DNA from: Eubacterium sp.
GTDB taxonomy: Bacteria; Bacillota; Clostridia; Lachnospirales; Lachnospiraceae
Direction of reading: 5' to 3'
NCBI GenBank assembly: GCA_024697845.1
Contig: JAILRZ010000050.1
Coordinates: 1 to 51,869 of the forward strand
DNA: 51,869 nucleotides
The position numbers and the translations under genes were made by a program. Below, piece after piece: positions 10,663 to 15,794 of this stretch. Numbering within the stretch: the first letter of the stretch is position 1; the number at the start of each line of letters is the position of its first letter. The notes beneath the pieces were generated by a model. That model was not told where the DNA came from and searched no databases. It saw only the letters and a program-made list of their open reading frames with translations.

Positions 10663-13107
10663 ATGAGAAAGAGTTTCAAAAAAGCAGTTGCAGTTGTGAG
10701 TGCGATTGCAATGGTAGTAGCCGGAATCTCGTACAAACCAGCAACAGCGAGTGCGGAAGCATTGGGAAAATGGTCAAATATTTACACAATGAATGAATGC
10801 ACGGTAGCAGACACATCAACAGATGACACATATGGTGTTTCATTTGAAGGATACTCAACAGATACAACTTGGGGCGGAGATTCAAAGTGGCAGGGTCAGG
10901 CACAGATAGCAGGATATCCCGTTACTAATGGAGGAAATTATAAAATTTCTTTTGATGTAACTGCTTCTGCTGAAAAGCAGTTTATTGTCCAGACTTTAAC
11001 TGGTGGTGTTTACACAGAAAATACTTATAGTTCCGCAGATGGTCATGTTGATATGCTGTTTACTGCTAAGGGTGCGGATGTTCAGGTCACAGTCGCTTTT
11101 GGTGCACTTTCAGCAACTGACGCAGGTACATTTGACATTGCGTTCTCAAACTTAACAATTACCGAAACACAGGAAGAAATCACAACAGAAGAAGTGACTA
11201 CAGCTACTGCTGATGATGATGGATTTACATCTGTAACGGCAGAACAAAAGATTAATGATTGGACACTTTTCGCTGGTGCTAATGTTAATTGGGGTGGCGG
11301 AAAGATTTCTGAAAAAGGAACAAGAGTAGGCATGGATTTGGCTGTCAGAGTCGATAATGCTACAACAGAATGGTGGGGCATTCAGGCTAAGTATCATGGT
11401 TTAGAAGGTTCGTTAGACGCATCCAAGACATATGATGTAACACTCAAGTTCGATGCTTCTAAAGCAGGAAAACTTGCAGTTAAATTAGACGGATATGATA
11501 ATAATGATGGAACACAGTATGATATTGTTTCTGGAACAAACACAATTACAAGAAATGATATTACTGGTGTAACAACAATTACTCCTGTATTTGCATTAAT
11601 TGGAACAGAAGCAGGAACAATTATTGATTTTACAGAAATTTCTATTGCTGAAAAGTCAGAAGAAACAACAGTAGAAGAGACAACAGTAGAAGAAACAACA
11701 GTAGAAGAGACAACAGTAGAAGAGACAACAGTAGAAGAAACAACAGAAGCTCCTACAGAAGTAGCAGGTTATGATTGGGTTAAGTTAGGAAATGGCTCCG
11801 GAGAAGCAGCTGGTGATGCAGTATATTATGATGACAATTCTGATGTAAATGTATCATTTGTAAATATTCAGAAGAGTTTCGGAACAGAAGCTGGTATTTA
11901 TACAACATATGCAGCTGGAATTTCCAGTGTAGTTGTTAATGGAGTTCAGCAGCCTTCAAGTTGTATCCAGGGTGCTGGAGCATTAATTTACCTTTCAAGC
12001 CTTACACAGGAAATTAATGAAGTAACAGTTGATTATGCTGGAGAAACAGCTTCATTCTTAATCAAGACTGAAAATCCGGCTACTCCATCTGATGAAACAA
12101 CAGAAGCACCAACAGAAGAACCAACAGAAGCGTCAACAGAAGCGCCAACAGAAGAACCTACAGAAAAGCAGCCTGGTGAGTTCGTTGTAATCCAAGACGA
12201 TGGAGGACAGGATACAGAATACTCTTATGATAATTCAACAGGTGCTACAATTGTAAATATTCAGTCACCAGGATTTACAACTGAAAGAGGTATTTACACA
12301 AATGTACCATCAGGAATTAGCAGTGTTACTGTTAACGGAACTGCAGTTGATGCACAGAACATCCAGGGTGCTGGTGCAATCATTCCATTAGCTTCATTAG
12401 TTGAAGGAGAAAATACAGTTGTAATTGTCCATGCACTTGGAACAGAAACAGTTATCGTTAAGTATGAACCTGCAGCAACAACAACATACGCTGTATCAGT
12501 AGATGGAACAAAAGTTGCTGATGTTGAAGCAGGAGATACATATACACTTCCTACAACTGCTCAGTATGGTTACTTTGCAGGAGATGATCTTTACAAAGCC
12601 GGCGCACAGGTTGTTGTAAACGGTGATATTGATTTTACATCATTAAATAGTGTTGCAGTAGAAATGGCAAACGGTGCTGTAGTTAAGAATGCAGCTCCAA
12701 CTGGTATTGCTTTCCAGGCAACAGTTACTGTAAACGAAAATGAAGAAGCAGTTGATGCAGCATTCCTTTCAACAGGTATGTTAATTACAGCAAATGACTT
12801 ATTCGTTGAAAAAGGTGGAAGTGAACTTACATTAGATAGTGATTACACATTTAAGGATGTTGCAAACACAGGTTGGTTTGCTGGAAATACCGGAACATAC
12901 CGTGCAGGTATCACAGGTGTTACATCAGAAAACTATATCAGAAAATTCATTGCAAGAGGATATGCTAAGTTAACATATACTGATGGAACAGATACAGTAG
13001 TTTATTCAGGAATGTCACCAGTAAGAAGCATTCAGCAGGTTGCTCAGGCAGCAATTAATGCAGGTTACGGAAATGACTTCCTTGCAGAGTGTGCAGCAGC
13101 GAAATAA
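10663..13107 (+). CDS. Secreted multidomain surface protein with CBM-like N-terminal domains, Thr/Glu linkers and paralogous C-terminal domain
   Basis: 814 aa; signal peptide; two jelly-roll-like segments; EETTV and EAPTE linkers; two copies of a ~100-aa WV-IYT-GISSV-V-IQGAGA module; C-terminal ~200 aa near-identical to that of the next protein. Confidence 0.75.
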   Translation: MRKSFKKAVAVVSAIAMVVAGISYKPATASAEALGKWSNIYTMNECTVADTSTDDTYGVSFEGYSTDTTWGGDSKWQGQAQIAGYPVTNGGNYKISFDVTASAEKQFIVQTLTGGVYTENTYSSADGHVDMLFTAKGADVQVTVAFGALSATDAGTFDIAFSNLTITETQEEITTEEVTTATADDDGFTSVTAEQKINDWTLFAGANVNWGGGKISEKGTRVGMDLAVRVDNATTEWWGIQAKYHGLEGSLDASKTYDVTLKFDASKAGKLAVKLDGYDNNDGTQYDIVSGTNTITRNDITGVTTITPVFALIGTEAGTIIDFTEISIAEKSEETTVEETTVEETTVEETTVEETTVEETTEAPTEVAGYDWVKLGNGSGEAAGDAVYYDDNSDVNVSFVNIQKSFGTEAGIYTTYAAGISSVVVNGVQQPSSCIQGAGALIYLSSLTQEINEVTVDYAGETASFLIKTENPATPSDETTEAPTEEPTEASTEAPTEEPTEKQPGEFVVIQDDGGQDTEYSYDNSTGATIVNIQSPGFTTERGIYTNVPSGISSVTVNGTAVDAQNIQGAGAIIPLASLVEGENTVVIVHALGTETVIVKYEPAATTTYAVSVDGTKVADVEAGDTYTLPTTAQYGYFAGDDLYKAGAQVVVNGDIDFTSLNSVAVEMANGAVVKNAAPTGIAFQATVTVNENEEAVDAAFLSTGMLITANDLFVEKGGSELTLDSDYTFKDVANTGWFAGNTGTYRAGITGVTSENYIRKFIARGYAKLTYTDGTDTVVYSGMSPVRSIQQVAQAAINAGYGNDFLAECAAAK
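11671..11745 (+). repeat. 15-bp tandem repeat (5 units) encoding VEETT linker
   Basis: gtagaaga(g/a)acaaca repeated five times in frame. Confidence 0.95.
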
Positions 13108-13121
13108 GGAGGAGTGAAAGA

Positions 13122-13259
13122 ATGAAAGAATTATACACAAGCCCAAAGGCGGAAGTAGTAGAATTTGATGCTAAAGATGTCATTACAACAAGCGGTATTC
13201 TTGACAACTTCAATGGAGTTACTGCAAATGAAGAAGCTGGTTGGACAGGTCTTTACTAA
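13122..13259 (+). CDS. 45-aa peptide (copy 1), MKELYTSPKAEVVEFDAKDVITTSGILDNFNGVTANEEAGWTGLY
   Basis: Intact short ORF 14 nt after the upstream stop with strong SD (aaggaggag); conserved with only synonymous changes in copy 2; followed by a terminator. Confidence 0.82.
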   Translation: MKELYTSPKAEVVEFDAKDVITTSGILDNFNGVTANEEAGWTGLY

Positions 13260-13282
13260 AAAATAAACTAAAAGTATATTGG

Positions 13283-13313
13283 CTCCCGAGCGGAAACGCT
13301 CGGGAGTTTTTTT
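13283..13313 (+). terminator. Intrinsic terminator of module copy 1
   Basis: ctcccgagcg-gaaa-cgctcgggag followed by ttttttt. Confidence 0.95.
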
Positions 13314-13561: not shown

Positions 13562-15589
13562 ATGACAAAAGCAATGAAAAAAGTCCTTTCTGTTGTTCTT
13601 AGTATTGCTATGATTGCTACTTCGATCACAGTATATAACACAACAGTTAAGGCAGCGGAAACTTTTGGAAATGTTGAAGGTGTTGCTGAAACTGATGGAA
13701 CAATCACAGTAAACATCGGATCAAAGCCAGATGGTTGGACAATGATTGAAGCGTATATTCTTGAAGGTGCGCAAGATGCAAATGCAACAGTAACAGACAA
13801 TGATGCGGCAGTTAATGGTGACGCAAATTGGAACTGGAACGTAGCCGGACGTGTTTACGGCGGTGTAAATGGAAATCAGGCTGATAAGATTGCTAAAAAT
13901 GCAGCAGGAACAGCACTTAAAGGAAATACTCTTTACACTGTTATTTTAATTGCATACACAGGTGAAAATCTTGGTGATTCCACAACTGAAATTGACAGAG
14001 TAGCAGTTCAGGTTACAACAGCTGAAAAAGAAGAAATTGTTGAAGTTGAAGATGCAAAAGAGACAGTTAATCAGGCTGTTCAGACTGTGCCTGCAGATGA
14101 TTCTGCAGATTGGGTTAGAATCAACGGAACATCAACTGATGGATCCATTGGTTGGGTATACCCAAATGTTAATGGAAATGCTGGATTATGGGGATTCTAT
14201 GATACAGCTAGCCAGGGAGCAAACTGGAATGGTGTTGGAAATACAGTAATTTACAACAAACCTGTATTTGCATTTGTTAAACAGCATGGAGATTCAGTAA
14301 CAATTGGTGAAAACAATGGAACTGCTACAAAGTACACAAACCCTAAGAATGTGGCAAATCAGTTAGTATGGGTTGGTGGTGGAGACTGTGTATATATTAA
14401 TCAGAGTCTTTTAACAGCACCAGCAGGACAGACAAAGATTTATTCTGTAACTTTAGGAACAGGTGATTCTTTCTTGATTAAAATTCAGGGACCAACTGAT
14501 CCAGAAGAAGAAACAGCACCAGATCAGACTTTGACAGGTTTTGATTGGGTACAGTTCCCAGGTGGAATTGGAGAAGCAAATTCAATCTATGATCAGGATG
14601 GAAATGATGTGTTTATTTCTAATAATGCTGTAGATGGAGATAATGCTTTCTTCAAAAAAACAGATATTTATGGTTTATACACAGATGCAACAAACGTACC
14701 ATATATTCCTGGTACGAACACAGTAACAGGAGCAACACTTTCATTTGCTACTACAAGAACAGAAAATATTGGTGCTATGCAGAGTGTTTGGGTAGATGGA
14801 ACAAGATATGCAAACAAGAGTGCTGATGTATTTATGGATGGTGACCAGATTCACATTTCACAGAATTTGATTGCTCTTCCAGCTAATCAGGATGAAAAAG
14901 TATTCTACATCACAATTCGTGGTACTGTAGATGATACATTTGCAATTAAGGTTGCAAAGAGAGCTACACATACCGTTTCAATTGATGGAACAGTTGTTGA
15001 TACTGTGACAGAAGGAGATACATACACACTTCCTACAACTGCTCAGTATGGTTATTTTGTAGGAGATGATCTTTACAAAGCCGGAGCACAGGTTGTAGTA
15101 AATGATGATATTGAATTTACATCATTGACAAGTGTTTCTGTAACAATGGCAGAAGGTGCTGTAGTTAAAAATGCAGCTCCAGCTGGTATTGCTTTCCAGG
15201 CAACAGTTACTGTAAACGAAAATGAAGAAGCAGTTGATGCAGCATTCCTTTCAACAGGTATGTTAATTACAGCAAATGACTTATTTGTTGAAAAAGGTGG
15301 AAGCGAACTTGCATTAGATAGTGACTATACATTTAAAAATGTTGAAAACACAGGATGGTTTGCTGGAAATACCGGAACATACCGTGCAGGTATCTCAGGT
15401 GTTACATCAGAAAACTATATCAGAAAATTCATCGCAAGAGGATATGCTAAGTTAACATATACTGATGGAACAGATACAGTAGTTTATTCAGGAATGTCAC
15501 CAGTAAGAAGCATTCAGCAGGTTGCTCAGGCAGCAATTAATGCAGGTTACGGAAATGACTTCCTTGAAGAGAGTGCAGGAGCGAAATAA
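13562..15589 (+). CDS. Secreted multidomain surface protein, paralogous in C-terminus to 10663-13107
   Basis: 675 aa; signal peptide; two [A/F]DWV modules; C-terminal ~200 aa aligned gap-free with the upstream paralogue. Confidence 0.75.
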   Translation: MTKAMKKVLSVVLSIAMIATSITVYNTTVKAAETFGNVEGVAETDGTITVNIGSKPDGWTMIEAYILEGAQDANATVTDNDAAVNGDANWNWNVAGRVYGGVNGNQADKIAKNAAGTALKGNTLYTVILIAYTGENLGDSTTEIDRVAVQVTTAEKEEIVEVEDAKETVNQAVQTVPADDSADWVRINGTSTDGSIGWVYPNVNGNAGLWGFYDTASQGANWNGVGNTVIYNKPVFAFVKQHGDSVTIGENNGTATKYTNPKNVANQLVWVGGGDCVYINQSLLTAPAGQTKIYSVTLGTGDSFLIKIQGPTDPEEETAPDQTLTGFDWVQFPGGIGEANSIYDQDGNDVFISNNAVDGDNAFFKKTDIYGLYTDATNVPYIPGTNTVTGATLSFATTRTENIGAMQSVWVDGTRYANKSADVFMDGDQIHISQNLIALPANQDEKVFYITIRGTVDDTFAIKVAKRATHTVSIDGTVVDTVTEGDTYTLPTTAQYGYFVGDDLYKAGAQVVVNDDIEFTSLTSVSVTMAEGAVVKNAAPAGIAFQATVTVNENEEAVDAAFLSTGMLITANDLFVEKGGSELALDSDYTFKNVENTGWFAGNTGTYRAGISGVTSENYIRKFIARGYAKLTYTDGTDTVVYSGMSPVRSIQQVAQAAINAGYGNDFLEESAGAK

Positions 15590-15603
15590 GGAGGAGTGAA
15601 AGA

Positions 15604-15741
15604 ATGAAAGAATTATACACAAGCCCAAAGGCAGAAGTAGTAGAATTTGATGCTAAAGATGTTATTACAACAAGTGGTATTCTTGACAACTTCAATGGAG
15701 TTACTGCAAATGAAGAAGCTGGTTGGACAGGTCTTTACTAA
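15604..15741 (+). CDS. 45-aa peptide (copy 2), amino-acid identical to copy 1
   Basis: Same SD spacing; three nucleotide differences, all synonymous (gcg/gca, gtc/gtt, agc/agt). Confidence 0.82.
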   Translation: MKELYTSPKAEVVEFDAKDVITTSGILDNFNGVTANEEAGWTGLY

Positions 15742-15763
15742 AAAATAAATTAAACATTTTCAA

Positions 15764-15794
15764 CTCCCGAGTGGAAACACTCGGGAGTTTTTTT
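15764..15794 (+). terminator. Intrinsic terminator of module copy 2
   Basis: ctcccgagtg-gaaa-cactcgggag followed by ttttttt; compensatory change relative to copy 1. Confidence 0.95.

Follow-up and report, generated by a model that had tools for sequence, protein, structure and literature searches.

The window, that is, the whole stretch of 51,869 nucleotides that was analysed, carries two copies of a short gene, and the question raised by this locus is what a 45-residue peptide, encoded each time behind a large secreted protein of this rumen bacterium, is made for. Both genes lie on the + strand (copy 1 at 13122..13259, copy 2 at 15604..15741), and translation and comparison agree with the earlier note that they give the same product, since the differences amount to 3 of 138 bases and are all synonymous. 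The peptide is without a signal peptide and found no match in the Pfam and NCBIfam scans; alignment divides it into a leader-like part (residues 1-24, MKELYTSPKAEVVEFDAKDVITTS, 13122..13193) and a core or tail (residues 25-45, 13194..13256) in which a variable acidic middle is followed by GWTGLY. As to the signals around the gene, the ATG lies 14 nt 3' of the stop of the secreted protein encoded upstream. The Shine-Dalgarno sequence AAGGAGGAG (13106..13114 for copy 1 and 15588..15596 for copy 2, with an identical spacer) overlaps that stop, and each copy ends shortly before the hairpin of a strong Rho-independent terminator (13281..13308 and 15762..15789), all of these on the + strand. The stems of the two terminators differ by paired, i.e. 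compensated, changes (GAGCG/CGCTC versus GAGTG/CACTC).

Within the duplicated block the identity of the two copies is 100% in the spacer, 97.8% in the peptide gene and 96.5% over the last 134 codons of the C-terminal domain (CTD) of the upstream protein, and the likeness drops 3' of the terminator. The CTD has 14 changed codons in this block, 7 of them non-synonymous, and the chance of all three differences in the peptide gene being silent was about 0.01. Spacer, peptide gene and upstream CTD are evidently one block, recently duplicated or converted, and for this reason the three silent changes by themselves carry little weight. Duplication alone, tried as the cause of the identity of the copies, is partly true, and the argument from within the window was therefore replaced by one from cross-species data.

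A match to the peptide (E≤1) was found in 21 of the 23 genomes of the genus, and the pooled pN/pS over 19 genus genes was 0.25, with values by segment of 0.15 for residues 1-24, 0.44 for the middle and 0.11 for the last five residues (the WTGLY tail). The homology and this ratio rule out a chance open reading frame and uphold the proposal of a real gene, which by these comparisons is clearly under purifying selection across the genus; frequent frameshifts or non-synonymous changes were looked for in the relatives and were not found. The homologues extend well beyond the duplicated pair, into the genus, the family and the class. The suggested bipartite build, a leader-like N-terminus with a separate tail, is apparent both in the alignments and in the segment values. 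Outside the genus conservation is limited to the first 25 residues: an alignment of 35 diverse relatives shows no variation at Tyr5 and Asp19 and a conservation of at least 90% at Pro8 and Ser24, the latter being the only near-invariant serine. The N-terminus of the wider clostridial family is near-fixed as YxxPxxE[VI]xxFxxxD[VI]ITTS, and the tails are variable.

A profile of the leader module was positive in 25 of 397 genomes of the family and in 37 of 340 genomes of the class. Matches per genome reached 14, 15 and 22 in G433, G434 and G628, where the precursors are scattered; many of the genomes surveyed are MAGs in fragments, the assemblies of several relatives are interrupted at these repeats, and copy numbers in MAGs are probably underestimates because the peptide repeat seems to break the assembly. 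The peptide gene lies at the end of three contigs in the MAG Tb.RUG.99 (L035 14-151, L036 14-148 and L049 8001-8048). The window's own genome holds at least two further peptides, one on C158 (MKEYRKPEIEIIEIDLKDVITTSNEEQ...) and a more divergent one on C20; the C20 reading frame (L271 2312-2494) has 60 residues, is YxxP-like without DVITTS and lies between two large secreted proteins. The named relatives are mostly Eubacterium and Lachnospiraceae MAGs, and the isolate names of several of them (RUG, RUI, goat duodenum) suggest rumen or gut. To judge from these matches the family, which is unnamed and widespread, extends well past a single genus. A literature search, which took in few subscription papers, gave no earlier account of YxxP peptides from Clostridia, so that priority is uncertain.

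The two upstream proteins, both on the + strand and both in the list of open reading frames, are protein 1 (814 residues, 10663..13107) and protein 2 (675 residues, 13562..15589). Protein 1 is made up of a signal peptide, a CBM_4_9-like region (its match to PF02018 CBM_4_9 being barely above the cut-off), acidic Thr-rich linkers and a conserved CTD (12475..13104, outlined by alignment and neighbourhoods), and by alignment protein 2 has the same CTD (14957..15586). The AlphaFold2 model of the latter domain, with a mean pLDDT of 82, is mostly beta; in the PDB Foldseek found no match to the fold at E≤0.001 and came closest with weak matches to Ig-like folds, and a comparison of the CTD sequence with the PDB gave nothing beyond antibody domains, those at E>0.1. 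At the GWTGL[YF]-type peptide loci examined in the genus, all upstream proteins that are intact have a CTD of this one family. More widely, of 56 distinct peptides 44 begin 10-48 nt (one with an overlap) 3' of a same-strand reading frame of at least 200 residues, and the N-terminus of that frame was signal- or TM-like, as called by a crude regular expression, in 13 of the 14 cases with a visible 5' end. The idea that the peptide is a partner of the upstream secreted protein gains support from the occurrence of the same arrangement in many clostridial families.

YxxP is the motif bound by discrete lasso-type RREs, and the N-terminus of the peptide looks like an RRE-binding YxxP leader of a RiPP. 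A gene for a PqqD-type RRE was present in 24 of 25 leader-positive genomes versus 128 of 397 in the family (Fisher p=5.9e-12, and still 5e-11 without the own genus) and in 35 of 37 leader-positive genomes versus 124 of 340 in the class (Fisher p=4.8e-15), p-values that are optimistic because the counts, which cover the listed genomes, take no account of relatedness. Three PqqD-family genes are present in the own genome, on C25, C94 and C196, away from the window peptides, and each adjoins a gene for an HprK-like kinase and one for a signal-peptidase-I-like protein (SpI); one of these sets further includes an NTP_transf_5 gene, and one includes an ABC exporter. The matches in the own sets were PF05402, TIGR02228-like, TIGR04249-like, PF14907 and ABC, with SpI and HprK below the curated cut-offs. 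The likely machinery for the peptide is thus predicted to be encoded elsewhere in its own genome, and the window peptides would be served in trans, as the three enzyme sets lie away from them; no RRE set of the own genome adjoins a GWTGLY-type peptide, and the RRE-linked peptides of the genus are of a divergent type without DVITTSG, so that service in trans is an assumption. The RRE-binding kind of the leader, the distant machinery and the reach of the family had not been foreseen by the earlier note.

In relatives the peptide gene is found inside HprK/RRE/SpI operons (L087, L089, L094, L138-L143, L268 and L275-L278), and ABC and NTP-transferase genes also occur in several peptide operons, the fuller ones being L268, L276, L277 and L278. 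The RREs can be aligned to crystal structures of RREs that bind YxxP/WxxP, among them LppB 9x8z and PbaB1 9x90; the RRE profile matched LppB 9x8z at E=1.8e-5, other lasso-type RREs being matched better. Asn35 is invariant in the 13 RREs collected and the corresponding Asp is present in most, and in the C25 RRE Asn35/Asp72/Phe76 are spaced as Asn33/Asp70/Phe74 of LppB. Some features of the neighbourhoods were recorded besides. In several genus members (L139-L143) an operon of secreted protein, YxxP peptide, lipoprotein, HprK, RRE and SpI lies beside an S10-type ribosomal protein operon. At L084 1-550 (G000:C94) a stalked membrane protein 5' of the HprK gene seems frameshifted, either through an assembly error or as a pseudogene, its later frame ending in ..NDDGYISLPDDY. 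Cas9-like large proteins are encoded near YxxP or RRE-set loci in three genus genomes (L044 3497-7567, L045 10006-13005 and L153 727-4791), probably a coincidence of neighbourhood.

Linear polyphosphorylated peptides (LPP) of Bacillota, published in 2026 without a known role, are encoded in P. alginolyticus by lppAKBSDN (PMC13381572, Nat Commun 2026). Their precursors have the consensus YxxPxVLxHQxIxFETxxS and their enzymes are the HprK-like LppK, the RRE LppB, the SpI-like LppS, the exporter LppD and the NTP transferase LppN; LppK introduces several phosphorylations at core Ser3, LppS cuts after FET, and YxxP is held by Asn33 and Asp70 of LppB (PMC13381572). The window family shares with LPP a leader that starts with YxxP and has a conserved terminal Ser, a constant N-terminus with a variable C-terminus, a discrete PqqD-type RRE with the Asn and Asp that fix YxxP (a putative binding, by these residues), an HprK-like kinase, an archaeal-type signal peptidase I, an MsbA-like exporter and an NTP transferase, and a frequent position beside capsule or exopolysaccharide genes, as on C196 of the own genome with its CpsD/Wzz-type genes; the complete LPP-type gene set is present in none of the three own sets singly. 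The two leaders differ, being E[VI]xxFxxxD[VI]ITTS in the window family and VLxHQxIxFETxxS in LPP: only Y, P and the final Ser of the LPP consensus match, HQ and FET are absent, and the spacing from Y to S is longer by one. Unlike those of LPP, the precursors of the window family are dispersed, with as many as 22 in a genome, and lie at a distance from the enzymes behind large secreted proteins, although many relatives of the window peptides do have the precursor clustered with the enzymes, and many operons of the family contain lipoproteins or TM proteins with copies of the tail motif. The words or stems Clostridi-, Lachnospir-, secreted and lipoprotein do not occur in the main text of the LPP paper (PMC13381572), and neither scattered precursors behind secreted proteins nor tail-sharing anchored proteins were found in that paper. 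Since the leader consensus differs from that of LPP, the window family is called LPP-like and is not filed as a member. The 45-residue product is probably the precursor of such an LPP-like, RRE-dependent RiPP, whose mature tail would act at the surface together with the secreted protein encoded next to it.

The leader signature of lasso peptides is YxxP together with a penultimate Thr, and the window leader has both, so that a lasso precursor with Thr at -2 (T-T-S before the cut, G after it), Gly1 at the start of the core and its lasso enzymes encoded elsewhere had to be considered, the more so as the RREs are nearest to the lasso PqqD models in NCBIfam (below cut-off) and align to lasso RRE structures. 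Paeninodin-type and other lasso systems are indeed similar in the YxxP/WxxP leader, the discrete RRE, the HprK-like kinase and the nucleotidyltransferase, but they differ from the window system in B2, in the fixed Gly1 and in the ring acid at core position 7-9. The own genome has no match over cut-off to Transglut_core3 (B2; PF13471), and in the linked gene sets that were seen SpI is present but neither B2 nor cyclase; no Asn-synthetase-like macrolactam cyclase was recognised in the flanks read. The residue after Ser24 varies in the relatives (G, P, S, N, A or D), leaving no fixed Gly1, and the ring acid is missing from the window peptide, which has Asp at core position 4 and its next acid at 13. 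Lasso membership was ruled out by the absence of B2 over cut-off and by these core features, and a lasso precursor is highly improbable. An unmodified small chaperone or assembly partner, which would not be a RiPP and would bind the nascent CTD in the cytosol or at the membrane, fits the tight coupling to the stops of the secreted proteins, a peptide devoid of signal peptide and a tail type that appears to follow the CTD type within the genus. It leaves unexplained, however, the near-exclusive co-occurrence with PqqD genes and the operons with kinase and peptidase, and the N-terminal module is constant although the secreted proteins and their C-terminal domains differ; we consider this explanation unlikely.

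A leader with a variable core and exporter genes is also the plan of a signalling peptide, and a signalling product had been one of the earlier suggestions, but this reading found no specific support. Neither a receptor kinase nor a regulator was recurrent in the neighbourhoods examined. Since, moreover, up to 22 copies with different tails per genome suit a partner of many proteins better than a single signal, it seems very improbable that the YxxP precursor releases a quorum or signalling peptide. RiPP machinery with an exporter would serve an antibacterial, bacteriocin-like peptide equally well; the peptide is acidic, not cationic, its genes are placed behind secreted proteins, the same peptide is kept in two adjacent operons and no recurrent immunity gene was seen, which makes such an activity extremely improbable. 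In prochlorosin-type RiPP systems few enzymes serve many scattered precursors with a constant leader, and the window family is like them in this plan; these systems have other enzymes (LanM) and another leader, and are not tied to secreted proteins.

For the LPP-like RiPP preferred here, further indications come from the proteins encoded next to the peptides. The peptide gene is followed in many operons by one for a lipoprotein or single-TM protein that has a long stalk of low complexity, and the tail of the peptide recurs at the C-terminus or in an internal segment of that anchored protein. Such tail pairs are GFGPLI/GFGPLI, DGDDINDLIN/NGDDVNDLVN, DEYELPFIP/EEYELPFIP, ESGWSGYY/DDGWTGYY, IDWF/IDWF and DDGNYGDLIG/DDSDYGELFG, and in two-peptide operons (G001, G004, G016, G018 and probably G152) there are two such segments in the anchored protein. 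Over 13 loci the cognate pairs of peptide and anchored protein outscored shuffled pairs (permutation p=2e-5; reduced set 1.2e-4), in a test that is exploratory and has fewer than 13 independent cases, as the pairs were picked by ourselves from the loci examined and some loci are related. A convincing tail match was absent at 5 of the 13 tested loci (G100, G047, G346, G288 and G142). Within the genus no lipoprotein, nor any other intact protein examined, ends in WTGL[YF], so that the argument of tail mimicry rests on the relatives. These pairs suggest that the tail may be a recognition motif common to the peptide and the anchored protein. Speculatively, the most likely receptor for the tail would be the CTD of the secreted protein, and by hypothesis the lipoproteins would compete for or share the tail-binding site on it. 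It was also observed that LP[FL][VI]P-like ends (ELPFIPVG, QLPLVPVQ, QLPFVPYEE and ELPFVPFD) are common on anchored proteins beside YxxP peptides (L093, L095, L104 and L262), even where the peptide has no such end.

In the pathway which we infer, the peptide would be made jointly with the secreted protein, and the RRE, acting in trans, would dock the YxxP leader and offer Ser24 to the kinase and the end of the leader to the protease. Ser24 would be the phosphorylation site, its position resembling that of the core Ser which is phosphorylated in the Paenibacillus LPP. With the leader removed, an acidic product of about 21-24 residues ending in GWTGLY would be exported, and this acidic, aromatic-ended core would act on the cell surface jointly with the secreted protein encoded beside it. 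The steps that follow synthesis, namely modification, cleavage, export and binding, are all predicted from homology and gene linkage. A wider scheme, put forward tentatively and itself rather doubtful, is a RiPP-based surface assembly in which one set of RRE, kinase and protease would control the display of many surface proteins through scattered companion peptides whose cores share tail motifs with lipoproteins; the motifs would be shared because the cores and the lipoproteins both bind the CTD of the secreted proteins.

If the peptide is such a precursor, a recently described peptide pathway would gain a concrete link to the cell surface, and the LPP gene set would be tied, in many gut and rumen clostridia, to small genes behind large secreted proteins that are not recognised by the family libraries. 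RiPP precursors can then be encoded at a distance from their enzymes, where mining based on gene clusters would overlook them. The question of the role of LPP would turn into direct tests, namely of the binding of the tail to the CTD and of the effect of loss of the RRE on surface display.
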